The translations under genes were made by a program, and so were the position numbers. This document shows positions 1,454-29,483 of a DNA stretch of 33,171 nucleotides, piece by piece (within the stretch, counting starts at the first letter, position 1; every line of letters begins with the position of its first letter). The notes under the pieces were generated by a model that worked only from the letters and a program-made list of their open reading frames with translations, did not search any database and was not told the DNA's origin. Source of the DNA: Lysobacterales bacterium (GTDB lineage Bacteria > Pseudomonadota > Gammaproteobacteria > Xanthomonadales > Wenzhouxiangellaceae); contig JAKSCJ010000115.1 of assembly GCA_022360675.1 (NCBI GenBank), positions 1 through 33,171 of the forward strand, written 5' to 3'.

Positions 1454-2023
1454 CTAGTTCCAGCCACATCCATTCCCTGATGCAAGACCGGAAACGGCGA
1501 TGTCTGCAAAAACCTGATATTCGGTCAGTGTTTCGCCGGTTTGTTCATGAATAATGATATCGGCGAGATCCGTTGTGGTATTGATGGAAATCTCAGCCCA
1601 GCCCCAATAGTTGTTATCGGTGGCTGAATAATCGGGCTCGGGGGCACCAGTGCCCTCACCTGCCGAATTCGTTGCATCACCCGTGCCTTCACCCGCCGAG
1701 TTGGTGGATTCACCGGTGCCTTCACCTGCTGAATTTGTGTCTTCGCCGCCGGTGCCCTCGCCTGCACCATTGGTATCGTCGCCAAATAAACTCAGACCGA
1801 CCATTGCATAGGCCGATTCAATCGGTGCGCTTCCTACGTATAAATCACTTCCCAGAGCCGCACCTACGGAAATACTATCGCAGCCATCCACCGCCACGGT
1901 TACATTGGTAGCCTGGGCACTTTGCGTCCCCAGAGTCGTCATTGCCAGAGCCAGAACTGATGCTTTTAAAGAGCAGCACAGAACGGAACCGATCCCCGTA
2001 CCTTCACGTTCAACAATGCGCAT
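1454..2023 (-). CDS. Exported protein with GEGTG tandem repeats, unknown function
   Basis: The 189-residue product has a hydrophobic export signal (about 18-38, ending TQSAQA) and a mature part with four near-identical repeats of the form TN(S/G)AGEGTG plus a two-residue linker (residues 84-128). A C-terminal domain (about 133-189) looks beta-rich and contains a YWGWAEISI segment and a terminal NGCGWN. Two ATGs lie two codons apart; I chose the second (2023) because GGAG is then six bases upstream, whereas it would touch the first ATG. The gene starts 24 bp after the stop of the DUF6502 gene and shares its transcript. The repeat region is rich in Gly, Glu and Thr and probably unstructured. 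No function can be assigned. Confidence 0.8.
   Translation of the reverse strand: MRIVEREGTGIGSVLCCSLKASVLALAMTTLGTQSAQATNVTVAVDGCDSISVGAALGSDLYVGSAPIESAYAMVGLSLFGDDTNGAGEGTGGEDTNSAGEGTGESTNSAGEGTGDATNSAGEGTGAPEPDYSATDNNYWGWAEISINTTTDLADIIIHEQTGETLTEYQVFADIAVSGLASGNGCGWN
1646..1774 (-). repeat. In-frame 33-36 bp tandem repeat encoding TNSAGEGTG units
   Basis: Four consecutive units of 11-12 codons encode TN(S/G)AGEGTG separated by GE, ES and DA dipeptides. The units differ at silent positions, so the array is not freshly amplified. Unit sizes are multiples of three, so copy-number change would lengthen or shorten the protein without a frameshift. Confidence 0.8.
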
Positions 2024-2047
2024 GGCCATCTCCGTCTATTTAATTGT

Positions 2048-2908
2048 TTATGGATGATCGCTATCTTCCCAGTAGTAGGCCCCGACACCTGCGGTAATTA
2101 AGTCGCCTTGGCTGTTGGCACTGTCAAAAGTATCAATAACCGCCTCTACCTCAGACATGGCTTTCTCCAGGCTATCTCGCACAGCCTGACGATAAACGGG
2201 TAGAGCTTCTACTGGAATAGAATAAGAAAAACGCGCTTGCTGGAACCATTTTTCATCGGGTTCCAGCGCACAATGAGAAACATTGTGCTGAATTGTATTT
2301 ACTAATCGACCAACCGCTTTACTCCCCACCTCAATCAGGGGCTTCTCGTTTTTAGAACCCAGCGAGAAGAAGCGATTCGTCAGGCGTACGTGGAATTCAT
2401 CGATCATTTCCACATTACCGCCTTCTAACAAACGATCTAAAACAGTATTGACTGTCACATTACGCCCCGCCGCGCGGGTCACCAAACCCTGAAATGTCGG
2501 GCCATGGCCGTAAATAATGAGATCTTTAGGCAGATTATTTTCAGGATCAACATATAAAGGATCGCTGGCCCATCTGGCTAAAATAGCAGCCTCACGTGAC
2601 AGTTCTTCGGGCGCATAACTCGGTTGGGTCGCCATCAGTTTGTTGATCATGCGACTGTCCATACCCGTGCGCAACGCCAAGGAAGACAAAGTCACTTTGC
2701 CTTGGCGCTCGTTAGACGAGCCCATTTCTTGAGCCAAAATTTTGCTGCACTCGTCAACATAGATACGCCGCACTACATCGAGCAGAGCATCATAGGTAAT
2801 ACGATTAATGAGGAGACGAACCACTGGCCGCAACATGCGATATACGGATTTGATGAGCCAGTCGGTATCCGGAGAAAGGTTATCTTTTGGCAGAACTTGT
2901 AACGTCAT
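2048..2908 (-). CDS. DUF6502-like protein, copy 1 (putative HTH protein)
   Basis: The 286-residue product is cytoplasmic, without signal peptide or membrane segment. It has an N-terminal helical region with a HTH-like stretch (VTLSSLALRTGMDSRMINKLM, about 72-92), a middle region with WASDP and VTVNTVLDRLL, and a C-terminal signature AGVGAYYWED. These features recur in the same order in the protein at 26116-26865, so the two are paralogues. I recognise the family as DUF6502, with no established function; a DNA-binding or anti-sigma-like role is only inference from the HTH-like part. The start has a weak GGAC ten bases upstream. Downstream it is coupled to the GEGTG-repeat exported protein. Upstream lies a GGA-hairpin RNA element with no terminator in between, so translation could be under CsrA/RsmA control. 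Confidence 0.72.
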   Translation of the reverse strand: MTLQVLPKDNLSPDTDWLIKSVYRMLRPVVRLLINRITYDALLDVVRRIYVDECSKILAQEMGSSNERQGKVTLSSLALRTGMDSRMINKLMATQPSYAPEELSREAAILARWASDPLYVDPENNLPKDLIIYGHGPTFQGLVTRAAGRNVTVNTVLDRLLEGGNVEMIDEFHVRLTNRFFSLGSKNEKPLIEVGSKAVGRLVNTIQHNVSHCALEPDEKWFQQARFSYSIPVEALPVYRQAVRDSLEKAMSEVEAVIDTFDSANSQGDLITAGVGAYYWEDSDHP

Positions 2909-25350: not shown

Positions 25351-25914
25351 CTATGGCGTTGAGCCCTGCGGAGTAAGGCCGTGGATCAGAGTGCGGTATA
25401 CCCAAGCCGCAGCCGCACTGGCGCCCACTTGCTGCTCTCCAATCATTTGCCATGCGGCATAAATTAAATTATTGAACGCCAAGACCACCCAATCGGCGGG
25501 GATTTCGCGGTCAATCGCCAATTCTTGCTGGCTGGCTTGAATCAGCATTTTCAGCTCATTATTTTGTCGATTCAGCTGCTTAATGACTTCCTCATCGCTG
25601 ATGGAAGGCTGACGAATCAAAAAATAATAGCGATCACCCATAGGTACGATGGCCTCAATGGTGAGGCGCAAAGCATCCAAAGAAGAAGTGGCCGCTGTCA
25701 TCACATGGGCGGTGGCGTCGTCGGTGGCTTGTATCGCCTCTAAACTCAGTGCTCGCAATAGATCTTCACGGCTCGGAAAGTGGCGGTATAAAGTGGCGCG
25801 GCCAATACCAGCCGCCTCGGCCACTTCAACAAATGAAGCGCCAGGGTTCTCGGCCAATAACACCGTAGCCGAATCCATCAACGCTTGGCGTGTCGCGCGT
25901 TGCCGTGCATCCAT
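25351..25914 (-). CDS. TetR-family transcriptional regulator
   Basis: The 187-residue repressor has an N-terminal TetR DNA-binding domain (MDARQRATRQALMDSATVLLAENPG, then the helix-turn-helix VAEAAGIGRATLYRHFPSREDLL at about 31-53) and a helical C-terminal ligand domain (about 60-185). ATG 25914 is preferred over a TTG at 25935: it gives a normal TetR N-terminus and AAGG precedes it. A palindrome matching those at the cytochrome promoter (O1, O2) lies at 25935-25954, just upstream of its own start, which points to autoregulation and control of the cytochrome gene and perhaps of the divergent DUF6502 gene. The ligand is unknown. Confidence 0.92.
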   Translation of the reverse strand: MDARQRATRQALMDSATVLLAENPGASFVEVAEAAGIGRATLYRHFPSREDLLRALSLEAIQATDDATAHVMTAATSSLDALRLTIEAIVPMGDRYYFLIRQPSISDEEVIKQLNRQNNELKMLIQASQQELAIDREIPADWVVLAFNNLIYAAWQMIGEQQVGASAAAAWVYRTLIHGLTPQGSTP

Positions 25915-25934
25915 AGACCTTCTCAATATTAACA

Positions 25935-25954
25935 ATAAGACACTTTTGTATCAT
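25935..25954. promoter_or_regulatory. TetR-type operator O3 in the tetR/DUF6502 divergent region
   Basis: ATAAGACA-CTTT-TGTATCAT has the half-site and 4-bp spacer of O1 and O2; 6 of 8 half-site positions match. It lies 21 bp upstream of tetR and 162 bp upstream of the divergent DUF6502 gene. Confidence 0.65.
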
Positions 25955-26115
25955 AAAATGCATTGTTTGTCCATGCATGTTATGGGCTCATCAAACCGCC
26001 TGCTGACTTTAATGGTTTTTCATAAGGCTTGTTGATAAGGGTCGAAGTTTTTATATTGTCTGCCGAACTTATTTTAACGGGCGATGCCAACAGGCATATA
26101 AGGGACGTCTTAACC

Positions 26116-26865
26116 ATGTCGGAAGATGCAAAGGAGGCAGCGGAAGCGCTGTTAGAAGAAGTATTTATTGCGCTCTTACAAATTGCCGATCGACATGGCA
26201 TTACCATCAAGCGTATGGCCGAGCTACTCCCCATTGCTCAAGTTCAGGCGATGCGCGCTCAAGGCATGACCCAGCAAGACATCATGGCGGCCAGTGGTTA
26301 CGCACTAAAAACCGTACGCAAATTACTCGCAGCCGATATTCCCAACGATAACTACAACCGCATCGAACGCTTTGTGGGCTCGTGGATGAGCGACCCTAAC
26401 TTCCCCCAATCTTTACCGCTCAATGGTGGTCGTTTCCCTAATTTTCATGATGTGGTGTTCCGCTACGGCCGCGAGTTTACGCCCGGTGCCTTACAGCGCA
26501 TTTTGGTGGAACAAGCCCTAGCCACTGTTGAAGACGAACAAATCACCTTAACTGGACGCGCCGTGTTGGGTCAGTCCACCACCGAGCGTTTAGAATCGGG
26601 TGCGATCAGCCTAGGTAATTTCATCAATACGGTGGCACATAACATTAGCGGCCACCAACCCCCACTGCTTGAACGACGTATTTGGTCTCATTCTATTCCC
26701 CCCGATCGCATCCCCATTGTGCGTGAACAAACACTCTCGGCGGCGCTGGAGTTTAAAGAGAAAATTGTCGCGATACTCAGCGCTGAAGAAGATCCAGAAG
26801 CAATGGAGCAAACGGATAGCTCACTGGCCGCAGGGATTGGTATTTACTGGTTTGAACGAGGGTAA
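26116..26865 (+). CDS. DUF6502-like protein, copy 2 (putative HTH protein)
   Basis: This 249-residue cytoplasmic protein is paralogous to the product of 2048-2908. The HTH here is clearer (MTQQDIMAASGYALKTVRKLLAADIPN, about 60-86). It shares the central WMSDP motif (WASDP in copy 1), a TPGALQRILVE segment matching VTVNTVLDRLLE, NFINTVAHNIS matching RLVNTIQHNVS, SIPPDRIPIVREQ matching SIPVEALPVYRQA, and the C-terminal AGIGIYWFERG. I chose ATG 26116 because AGGGA lies upstream and the extension to 26029 is not conserved in copy 1. As in copy 1, the next gene on the same strand encodes a small exported protein. Function is unknown; DNA binding is inferred from the HTH. Confidence 0.73.
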   Translation: MSEDAKEAAEALLEEVFIALLQIADRHGITIKRMAELLPIAQVQAMRAQGMTQQDIMAASGYALKTVRKLLAADIPNDNYNRIERFVGSWMSDPNFPQSLPLNGGRFPNFHDVVFRYGREFTPGALQRILVEQALATVEDEQITLTGRAVLGQSTTERLESGAISLGNFINTVAHNISGHQPPLLERRIWSHSIPPDRIPIVREQTLSAALEFKEKIVAILSAEEDPEAMEQTDSSLAAGIGIYWFERG

Positions 26866-26934
26866 GCTTTCCCCGCCGCAGGATTTGAGGGCTGTGCCTT
26901 AAAGCTTGCGGCTTTATTCCTAAGGAGGTTACCC

Positions 26935-27102
26935 ATGAAAAAACGATACACATTGTTCTTACTATTATTTGTGTCAATCTCAAGTTTTGCAGTTAATGAG
27001 GGCGGTACAGGCATACCAGAAAGCATCGAAAGTACCGGTAGTAACGCACCACAGTCGAGCTATCAATGGTTCGATGCATTCATGCGTTGGTGGCCGTTTT
27101 AA
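26935..27102 (+). CDS. 55-residue exported peptide paired with DUF6502 copy 2
   Basis: ATG 26935 is preceded by AGGAGGT at good distance, one of the best ribosome sites in the window. The product begins with a classic signal peptide (MKKRYTLFLLLFVSISSFA) and leaves a mature peptide of about 35 residues starting VNEGGTGIPES, ending in the aromatic tail FMRWWPF. The GGTG motif recalls the GEGTG repeats of the exported protein that follows DUF6502 copy 1. It lies 69 bp after the DUF6502 stop and before a strong terminator, so the two genes form an operon. No family known to me; a secreted signal, toxin-like peptide or envelope-stress ligand are all open. Confidence 0.8.
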   Translation: MKKRYTLFLLLFVSISSFAVNEGGTGIPESIESTGSNAPQSSYQWFDAFMRWWPF

Positions 27103-27184: not shown

Positions 27185-27311
27185 ATCTACCCACCGCGAA
27201 AAGCAACACTGTTAATCGGATTCTGCTAGCGCTTAACGAAATATAAAATATATCGATATCAAAGCTTTGCTAGACTGCCCGCTCCCTTGTAAGGACACAG
27301 GAGCGTATGGA

Positions 27312-29483
27312 ATGAAGGCTCGTATTTCTGCCTTTTTCGCCCCCATAGCCAGCCTTATGCTGGCGGGCGGCTTGTATTCACCCAGTGCCTCGGCCACCTG
27401 GTCGGTGGTGGTGTTCGATACCGAAACCCAAGAGGTGGCCGTGGGTGGTGCCACTTGTTTATCGAGTGCGCAGGTTCCCGGCATCGATTTAAGCGAAGAG
27501 CTACCCGTCATCGTTGTAGGCGCTGGCGGCGGTGCCGCCCAATCCCAACTCGACGCCTCGGGCCAACGCCGAGTTATTATCAACAACGGTATTCGTGGCC
27601 AATTAAGCGCCACACAAATTCGCGATCAACTCATTCAGTTATCGGGTACCTCGGCCCATCAGCATGGTATTGCCGGTGCCGGTGGCAGCCAGGCAACACA
27701 AACCGGTAGCGGTAACTTCCCCCATGCTTCGGGCGTGGCGGGCAGCAGCGGTAATTTACATTACGCCATTCAAGGCAATGTGCTGGCCGGGCCCGAAGTG
27801 GTGCAAGCAGCCGAACAAGCCTTAGTGAACGATGGCGGCGATTTACCGCAACGTTTAATGGCGGCCATGGAAGCAGCTCGCGATTTCGGTGGCGATGGTC
27901 GTTGTTCTTGCAATGGGCCGCGCGCCGATAGCTGTGGTTCACCACCGCCTAATTTCAATAAATCGGCCCATGTGGGCTTTATGTTGGTTTCACGCTTTGG
28001 CGATACCGATGGCAACAGCTGTAATGGTGGTGGTTGCGCCAATGGCGACTACTTCATGCGCTTGAATGTGCCCAACCAACCCGCTTCGGCCCCCGATCCT
28101 GTCGATCAACTGCGCAATCAGTTCGATCAATTCCGCAGCAATTTAAATAATCGTCCCGATGCAGTGCAGTCCGATATCAACCTCACGCCCAACAGTGGTG
28201 GTTTTCAATTACAACTCACCATTAACGATTGGCGTGGTGTGCGGGTAAACGCGGGTATTAATAATGTGACCGTTAGCCATGCCGCCAACAGCGCGGGCAA
28301 CGCACAAATTGGTAGCGTGATTAACAATGGCAACGGTGTGTTCACGGTAAACCTCAACACGCCCGAACAACGGGTAGGTGACGATCTCTTTGAGGTGCGA
28401 ATCGACGACGGCCTGCGCGATGTGGTGATTCCGCCCCAACGTACACGTATTGCCGGTAACGCCATGGCCAGCTGCCCGGCGGGCTCTATTGATTTCAATG
28501 CCTTTGCCACCACCAGTTTCTCGAATCAAGACAACCCCGATACCGGCTCGGTACAAGTGCAAGATGGTGGTGCCACCTTGGCCTTAACGGGTAATCGCTG
28601 GCGCGCGTCCAGCCAAAGCTTTAGCGTCACACCCAACACCGTGATCGAATTCGAATACGCCGCCGGCCCGCAGGGCGAAATCCACGGCATTGGCTTTGAC
28701 GAAGACGATACCATCAGCCAGGACCGCATCTTCCGAGTGTGGGGCGTGCAAAACTGGGGCATGACGTTTAATCCGCAATACGATGGTTCGGGTGCCTTCC
28801 AAAGCTTCCGTATTCCGATCGGACAAAGCTACACCGGCAACAGCATGCGTTTGGTTTTTGTGAATGATCACGATGCGGCACCGCAAAATGCGGCTTCGCG
28901 TTATCGTTGTGTACGCGTTTTTGAAGAAGATACCGGCCCCGGCGGCAGTTGTAGCCTCGAACAGAATTTTGATAACAATGCCAGCGGTTGGACCAACGCC
29001 AGCAATGCCAGCTGCAGCACGGGTAGCTTTGTGCGCGGCACACCCACCGTTACCAGTAATGGTGGCATTACCATTCAAGCGGGCGGCGATAACACCTCGG
29101 GCAATGGTGGCGCCATGTTTACTGCGGTCAATAGCTCCGCCGGTGTAGACGACGTAGATGGCGGCGAATGCATCTTAGAGTCGCCCACCATCACCGTAAA
29201 TGAAGCCTCCACATTAAACATGGCTTACTTCCATGGCCAACGCGACGCTGGCGATGATGCGGGCGACTTCTTTGCATTAGAAGTCTCCACCAATGGCGGT
29301 GGCAGTTATCAACCCATTGTGAACATTGGCGATGTACAAAGCGTTGGTGCCTGGAGCAATGCTCCGGCCACCAATATCGCCGCCGGTAGCCAGGTGAGAA
29401 TTCGCCTGCGCGTAGCGGATGGCAGCGCGAATGGCGATTTAATTGAAGCCGGTTTGGACGATGTGAGTATCTGCCCTAATTAA
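27312..29483 (+). CDS. Secreted DUF1028 (Ntn-hydrolase-like) multidomain protein
   Basis: The 723-residue exported protein has signal peptide 1-28 with SASA before TWSVVVFD. Cleavage there would leave Thr29 at the N-terminus, where DUF1028 proteins and other Ntn hydrolases carry their nucleophile. Residues about 29-250 are the DUF1028 domain (TWSVVVFDTETQEVAVGGATC, IVVGAGGGAAQSQ). It is followed by an Ig/Big-like segment (about 290-385), a beta-sandwich that may bind ligand (about 390-540, with IEFEYAAGPQGEIHGIGFDEDD) and a MAM-like jelly-roll module (about 545-723, with LNMAYFHGQRDAGDDAGDFFALEVSTNGG). Several Cys suggest disulphides. AGGAG lies nine bases before ATG 27312. A single-gene unit between two terminators. 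Substrate unknown, perhaps peptides or amides on the cell surface. Confidence 0.82.
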   Translation: MKARISAFFAPIASLMLAGGLYSPSASATWSVVVFDTETQEVAVGGATCLSSAQVPGIDLSEELPVIVVGAGGGAAQSQLDASGQRRVIINNGIRGQLSATQIRDQLIQLSGTSAHQHGIAGAGGSQATQTGSGNFPHASGVAGSSGNLHYAIQGNVLAGPEVVQAAEQALVNDGGDLPQRLMAAMEAARDFGGDGRCSCNGPRADSCGSPPPNFNKSAHVGFMLVSRFGDTDGNSCNGGGCANGDYFMRLNVPNQPASAPDPVDQLRNQFDQFRSNLNNRPDAVQSDINLTPNSGGFQLQLTINDWRGVRVNAGINNVTVSHAANSAGNAQIGSVINNGNGVFTVNLNTPEQRVGDDLFEVRIDDGLRDVVIPPQRTRIAGNAMASCPAGSIDFNAFATTSFSNQDNPDTGSVQVQDGGATLALTGNRWRASSQSFSVTPNTVIEFEYAAGPQGEIHGIGFDEDDTISQDRIFRVWGVQNWGMTFNPQYDGSGAFQSFRIPIGQSYTGNSMRLVFVNDHDAAPQNAASRYRCVRVFEEDTGPGGSCSLEQNFDNNASGWTNASNASCSTGSFVRGTPTVTSNGGITIQAGGDNTSGNGGAMFTAVNSSAGVDDVDGGECILESPTITVNEASTLNMAYFHGQRDAGDDAGDFFALEVSTNGGGSYQPIVNIGDVQSVGAWSNAPATNIAAGSQVRIRLRVADGSANGDLIEAGLDDVSICPN

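Follow-up and report, generated by a model that had tools for sequence, protein, structure and literature searches.

The closest described systems to the gene pairs reported here are those of the cyanobacterial transcription factor HetR, which is inhibited by peptides featuring RGSGR (from PatS and HetN) or RGTGR (from PatX) (PMC7761841). HetR recognizes DNA with the consensus GGG-N5-CCC; its flap and hood domains were described as novel folds and HetR itself as a novel transcription factor, and the peptide PatS6 joins the hood as an extra strand and frees HetR from DNA (PMC4649674). PatX is exported by the Sec route and cleaved by the peptidase PatP, and the HRGTGR peptide binds HetR (PMC12756182). 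In Leptolyngbya, patX and hetR stand together behind one predicted promoter, and the role of HetR outside heterocyst formers has been called a mystery (PMC11298460). To our knowledge, peptide signals that act on cytoplasmic regulators are rarely described in Gram-negative bacteria. The two protein families that concern us here, DUF6502 (PF20112) and DUF5666 (PF18914), are both named only as unknown. The literature that we searched, which did not cover subscription journals and preprints, contains no mention of DUF6502 or of a HetR relative outside cyanobacteria, and no description of a common motif, fold and operator of DUF6502/DUF5666.

The window analyzed here is a stretch of 33,171 nucleotides from the genome (3.9 Mb in 518 contigs) of a relative of Wenzhouxiangella (Gammaproteobacteria), and it holds two pairs of a DUF6502 gene and a downstream gene for an exported protein with a GTG motif (Table 1). 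The original prediction, made from sequence alone, comprised a DUF6502 gene followed on the minus strand by an exported protein after a 24-bp gap, with one terminator common to both genes, and a second pair at 26116-27102 with an otherwise different exported peptide bearing GGTG, the whole being a two-part system with no described function. The gene order, the strand and the second pair held, as did the single strong terminator, to which nothing between the P0002 and P0001 genes is comparable; the lack of a described function stands as well, DUF6502 being absent from the literature searched. Counted from the first ATG, the intergenic gap measures 18 bp; the predicted 24 bp holds for a start at the second in-frame ATG. 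P0001 was said to contain four TNSAGEGTG repeats: the count of four held, but they are one TNGAGEGTG and three TNSAGEGTG, and a fifth GTG copy was missed, REGTGIG, which precedes the signal-sequence core. The position of this copy corresponds to the arrangement of the EKSGTGI repeats in relatives. P0002 scores 60.7 bits (1.3e-16) and P0003 36.6 bits (3e-9) against the Pfam DUF6502 model, whose gathering score is 27 bits; both exceed this cut-off, and the objection that the two proteins might be non-homologous, foreseen in the original prediction, therefore fails. P0004 is of the same type as the partners at five loci (L004, L012, L258, L259 and L261). Directly after the second pair, the window encodes a 738-aa exported-looking protein with a DUF1028 domain (27267-29483).

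Table 1. Features of the two gene pairs, in window coordinates
Feature	Start	End	Strand	Basis or detail
P0002, DUF6502 protein, 286 aa, predicted HetR-fold DNA-binding regulator	2048	2908	-	Pfam, AF2 model, Foldseek, VIA
P0002 N-terminal helical/HTH part, residues 13-95, corresponding to the HetR DNA-binding domain region	2624	2872	-	secondary structure
P0002 winged-helix part, residues 100-180, in place of the HetR flap region	2369	2611	-	model secondary structure
P0002 C-terminal part, residues 184-286, ending GVGAYYWE, in place of the PatS-binding HetR hood	2051	2359	-	
P0001, exported partner, 191 aa, five GTG motifs	1454	2029	-	
P0001 GTG motif REGTGIG, ahead of the signal-sequence core	1994	2002	-	
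P0001 repeat array, four TN(G/S)AGEGTG units within the exported portion	1646	1774	-	
Intrinsic terminator closing the two-gene unit	1399	1421	-	10-bp stem, 9 G-C pairs, then T-run
P0003, second DUF6502 protein, 249 aa, short type	26116	26865	+	Pfam, AF2, Foldseek
P0004, exported partner peptide, 55 aa, VNEGGTGIPE...	26935	27102	+	
P0004 GTG motif, NEGGTGIPE	27004	27012	+	

We propose, with a rough probability of 0.6, that DUF6502 and its exported GTG partner are a proteobacterial counterpart of the HetR-PatS/PatX switch, a reading that rests on analogy and in which peptide binding is inferred. As in HetR-PatX, a regulator with a predicted HetR fold is adjacent to a gene for an exported precursor with a G-T-G core (PMC12756182, PMC11298460), the two genes form a short unit, and in some DUF6502 clades a palindromic DNA site lies ahead of that unit. 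The likeness extends to HetR-PatS/HetN (PMC4649674, PMC7476756, PMC7761841) in the G-S-G core and the C-terminal hood-like domain, and the motif is carried by unrelated proteins, much as RGSGR is found both in the small PatS and in HetN; however, an exported precursor encoded beside the regulator gene has been described for PatX and not for PatS. Unlike in HetR-PatX, the gene order is reversed (DUF6502-partner here and patX-hetR there), the partners lack the arginines of RGTGR and are often large and unrelated to one another, and there are many DUF6502 copies per genome, in proteobacteria rather than in filamentous cyanobacteria.

The pairing of DUF6502 with an exported GTG partner recurs in three proteobacterial classes and is repeated many times in the source genome of the window, as is shown by computation. 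Within the window's order, 74 of 250 genomes contain DUF6502, as do 21 of 61 in a single betaproteobacterial family, 10 of 240 from alphaproteobacteria and 15 of 299 taken across the phylum; none of the 14 control genomes does. The alpha- and betaproteobacterial labels rest on annotated relatives and protein types. The 203 DUF6502 genes that we scored came from alpha-, beta- and gammaproteobacteria; they and control genes taken from the same loci were put to a crude automatic rule that accepts a next same-strand ORF with a hydrophobic segment near its start and a GTG near that segment, signal sequences being called by hydropathy and not by a dedicated signal-peptide predictor. An exported GTG protein is encoded by the next gene for 129 of the 203 DUF6502 genes (64%) versus 22 of 277 controls (8%; odds ratio 20, p = 4e-40), with the caveat that this p-value overstates independence because the DUF6502 genes are mutually related. 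The rule is a stricter one, adopted because the first control rule, which 47 of 446 control genes passed, was too loose. It errs both ways: real partners at four loci (L012, L131, L133 and L258) were scored negative, and some shadow frames were taken as genes. A degenerate DNA pattern for EKSGTGI gave 29 matches at 12 loci in 12 of 43 whole family genomes, every match directly downstream of DUF6502 and every one of the 12 genomes possessing DUF6502; the 15 family genomes without a DUF6502 match yielded none, and the reversed control pattern had 0 matches in the 43. The scoring of next genes across genomes, which the original prediction had called for, thus finds the pairing strongly enriched, and the random downstream neighbors that would have refuted it are not what is seen. 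Chance pairing is likewise rejected on the 129/203 versus 22/277 counts and on the confinement of EKSGTGI to positions downstream of DUF6502.

The same arrangement is displayed by annotated alphaproteobacterial DUF6502-DUF5666 neighbors, namely those of Rhizobium etli p42f (RHE_RS27340/27345), Azospirillum lipoferum 4B, Methylocystis iwaonis and Pseudoroseomonas cervicalis. The pairing is not universal: about a quarter to a third of the DUF6502 genes have no recognizable GTG beside a signal sequence, and in some clades IGSG, IGLG or IGHG replaces GTG. In one family of the window's order, we also observed tandem DUF6502 pairs without a recognizable GTG partner (L178, L179, L181 and L186). At L112 and L113 (Rhizobium etli p42f and Azospirillum lipoferum), the DUF6502-DUF5666 pair has a methyl-accepting chemotaxis gene a short distance behind it.

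The only feature common to the exported partners, which are otherwise unrelated, is the GTG motif, most often in the forms EKSGTGI, xEGTG, GIGGTG and QGGTG; the G[TS]G core of RG[S/T]GR is present in them without its flanking arginines. The alpha- and betaproteobacterial partners are DUF5666-type lipoproteins with GGIGGTG or repeated RGIGGTGI, those of the window's order are proteins of about 490 aa with QGGTG or IIGSG, and those of Wenzhouxiangella carry EKSGTGI repeats ahead of the signal core. Across 149 partner genes, we counted 637 copies of the motif in 59 different nine-base spellings, with codon frequencies at the background of the rest of the partner gene. Therefore, GTG is a protein feature and not a DNA site, and its conservation at the protein level is shown by computation. 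On the same figures, we reject the candidate explanation that the repeats are an operator inside the partner gene. The first copy of the motif lies after the hydrophobic core in 99 of the 149 genes and before it in the other 50.

These observations bear on a rival that remains possible, in which DUF6502 is a HetR-fold operon regulator and the partner an envelope protein whose G[TS]G serves as an extracellular structural or attachment motif and not as a DUF6502 ligand. In its favor, long envelope proteins or lipoproteins are numerous among the partners (DUF5666 in alpha- and betaproteobacteria and the about 490-aa proteins in the window's order), GTG begins a domain in the long partners, and there are no binding data. 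Against it, the same motif is found in unrelated partners ranging from 47 to about 500 aa, and in the 50 genes noted above the first copy is on the cytoplasmic side of the signal core; an extracellular structural role accounts neither for these cytoplasmic-side copies nor for the likeness of G[TS]G to the ligands of HetR.

The predicted HetR fold of the regulator is the point that the original prediction could not see, and it supplies a concrete mechanism for the proposed system of a cytoplasmic regulator-like protein and a secreted partner, which is itself supported by the recurrent pairing, the predicted DNA-binding fold and GTG as the sole common feature of the partners. An AF2 monomer model of P0002 from a 51-sequence alignment (pLDDT 91.5, pTM 0.82) has HetR as its top three Foldseek matches in the PDB (4j00, 5.8e-5; 4izz, 3.0e-4; 3qod, 5.7e-3), and the next hit after these has an E of 0.15. 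By VIA, the five best HetR entries reach Z-scores of 10.6, 10.1, 9.9, 9.6 and 8.8 over 215-234 residues at an rmsd of 6.4-7.1, the best of them pairing 231 residues at 6.7, and the first non-HetR row has a Z of 7.5 over 50 residues. The TM-score to HetR is moderate (0.42), and such scores together with the large rmsd look as if the domains might be placed differently than in HetR. The VIA alignment pairs P0002 residues 16-283 with HetR 10-298: HTH-only structures match at residues 37-95, winged-helix structures cover 97-183, the region where the hhalign alignment to HetR 184-274 starts, and in the C-terminal part a long helix leading into an extended stretch occurs twice, resembling the alpha-beta-alpha-beta hood of HetR. 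P0003, which is about 20% identical to P0002 and was modeled separately (AF2 monomer, pLDDT 87), retrieves HetR chains as its top seven Foldseek hits (E 6e-3 to 5e-2) with a weaker VIA match (Z 6.8, 207 residues, rmsd 11, rank 2). The HTH, flap and hood fold is accordingly a model-based prediction for two divergent DUF6502 proteins, the weaker one being that for P0003. Both models are of monomers; HetR itself forms an intertwined dimer.

The hhalign alignment of DUF6502 and HetR is colinear over the wing and into the beginning of the hood with P of 0.0007-0.0017 and a probability of only 15-26%; HetR beat all 331 unrelated decoy proteins with both profiles tried. Sensitivity was low because only two HetR sequences from the PDB were usable for the profile (the Anabaena HetR sequence used matches PDB entry 4hri letter for letter), and no HetR homologs for a deeper one were found in plasmids or viral contigs. 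A DUF6502 profile search of the PDB sequences did not list HetR, NCBIfam offered nothing useful, PF03574 (Peptidase_S48) and PF18460 (HetR_C) had no match to P0002, P0003 or a betaproteobacterial DUF6502 protein, and HetR_C had none in the whole source genome at E 10. By the Pfam definition, DUF6502 falls outside the HetR family. By sequence alignment, the PatS-contacting Glu253, Asp270 and Asp278 of HetR are not conserved in DUF6502, where the PatS-binding positions are mostly aromatic (F/W/Y), R/N/K or variable, and the position of HetR Arg223 features a basic or polar residue only sometimes. The case for membership in HetR proper is weaker on account of the missing Pfam match, the unconserved contact acids and the absent arginines. 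At P0002 positions 240 and 244, where HetR has acids facing the arginines of PatS, arginine is found in many DUF6502 proteins of the window's family, and GTG in their partners is immediately preceded by an acidic residue; this observation is suggestive only.

That palindromes lie upstream of the alpha- and betaproteobacterial DUF6502 genes is shown by computation. They take the form GTGGGA-W5-TCCCAC and are often multiple, with 2-3 copies spaced at about 29-36 bp (e.g., L045-L049, L079-L084 and L113-L116). A search of 230 alphaproteobacterial genomes gave nine such sites in seven genomes, six of these with DUF6502, and six of the nine sites lie no more than 200 bp upstream of DUF6502; the remaining sites are without a clear target, two being in genome G554 (one 2.2 kb upstream of DUF6502 and one distant) and one in G670. 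This palindrome reads GGG-N7-CCC where the consensus of HetR, which regulates its own gene, has N5, and binding data are lacking. Upstream dyads of other kinds, TTGTAA-N6-TTACAA or TTGCAA-N6-TTGCAA, occur in other clades of the window's order. More generally, a perfect 7+7 dyad is found in 97 of 191 DUF6502 upstream regions versus 32 in shuffles, the corresponding figures for control genes being 53 of 221 versus 35. We found no operator common to the Wenzhouxiangellaceae DUF6502 genes and no clear palindrome or operator site upstream of P0002. An ATGCAT-N9-ATGCAT dyad lies at 25958-25978 of the window, in the interval separating a divergent TetR-family gene (25351-25935) from the P0003 gene, and could belong to either the TetR-family or the DUF6502 regulator.

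The upstream palindromes also speak to the rival that DUF6502 is a dedicated chaperone, which recognizes GTG in the precursor and steers its export. In support of it, the DUF6502 and partner genes often overlap by 4 bp, the motif is beside the signal sequence and sometimes in its N-region, and some partners have Tat-like signals. Against it stand the two DNA-binding-type domains with the HetR fold, the palindromes themselves and the copies of the motif that lie far along the mature protein, and we regard it as very unlikely.

Returning to the preferred reading, a HetR-like predicted shape together with an exported neighbor bearing a G[S/T]G-type motif leads us to suggest that proteobacteria may use the same kind of peptide signaling. 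DUF6502 would be a DNA-binding regulator with the three-part fold of HetR (N-terminal HTH, winged-helix flap and C-terminal hood); it would bind palindromes in its own promoter and autoregulate, with the exported partner being made from the same short operon. Short peptides around the G[TS]G core of the partner, either released by processing or met before export, would bind the hood-like domain and alter DNA binding by DUF6502, and the outcome would be a negative (or self-sensing) feedback. Inferred, in the absence of data on binding, export or expression, are the role of the motif as ligand, its binding by the hood, the release of the peptide and its return into the cell, and the direction of the regulation. 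On that inference, the DUF6502 system would, by analogy, work like HetR-PatX. A wider reading, which we consider somewhat less likely than not, is that HetR-type signaling is not a cyanobacterial invention: it would have a large DUF6502 branch in alpha-, beta- and gammaproteobacteria, with up to about 20 pairs per genome that differ in their motif surroundings, amounting to multi-channel peptide signaling or self-sensing in Gram-negatives. Were a HetR relative thus available in proteobacteria that can be cultured, Rhizobium etli for example, a family without prior study would become accessible, DUF6502 would give an evolutionary outgroup for HetR-PatX, and the pairs would constitute a whole family of Gram-negative peptide signals acting on cytoplasmic regulators.

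The source genome has 12 DUF6502 genes by the Pfam model and 20 matches by a profile of its own family, of which 14 have an exported GTG partner, two a GSG partner and four none. Among the partnerless genes, L006 stops short of the hood-like domain and another is truncated at its N terminus; the former, lacking both hood and GTG partner, is a single case that could be consistent with the hood as the target of the motif, or may be a decayed gene. Two types can be distinguished in this genome: the long type combines a DUF6502 protein of 280-310 aa with a partner of 117-190 aa, mostly showing a WGxxE...C...C pattern in its C-terminal part, and the short type combines a DUF6502 protein of about 250-260 aa with a peptide of 47-56 aa (xxGTGxP...) that has a hydrophobic tail. 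The short peptides raise the rival of a toxin-antitoxin-like or bacteriocin pair, in which they would be antibacterial and DUF6502 an antitoxin, immunity or control protein. The hydrophobic/aromatic ends of the 47-56-aa partners (...WPF, ...WPW) and the many paralogs within one genome speak for it; however, other clades pair the same regulator with large, non-toxin-like lipoproteins, and a betaproteobacterial DUF6502 query had no match in 50,697 phage records, and we judge this rival, too, to be very unlikely. On the HetR-PatS/PatX reading, some 16 to 20 pairs with differing GTG surroundings would act as parallel switches in the source genome.

Several individual loci are worth recording. At L260, an AbiEi-type-antitoxin-like gene lies 3′ of DUF6502 and is followed by a nucleotidyltransferase-like ORF, as judged by eye. 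At L011/L257, one DUF6502 gene is followed by three tandem exported GTG partner genes and then by an N-terminally truncated second DUF6502. The paralogs L003 and L005 of the source genome have long perfect upstream palindromes that are different for each (GCAGATAGATCGAATCTATCTGC; AAAGTGGTAGCATATTACCACTTT), and these are possible candidates for paralog-specific operators.
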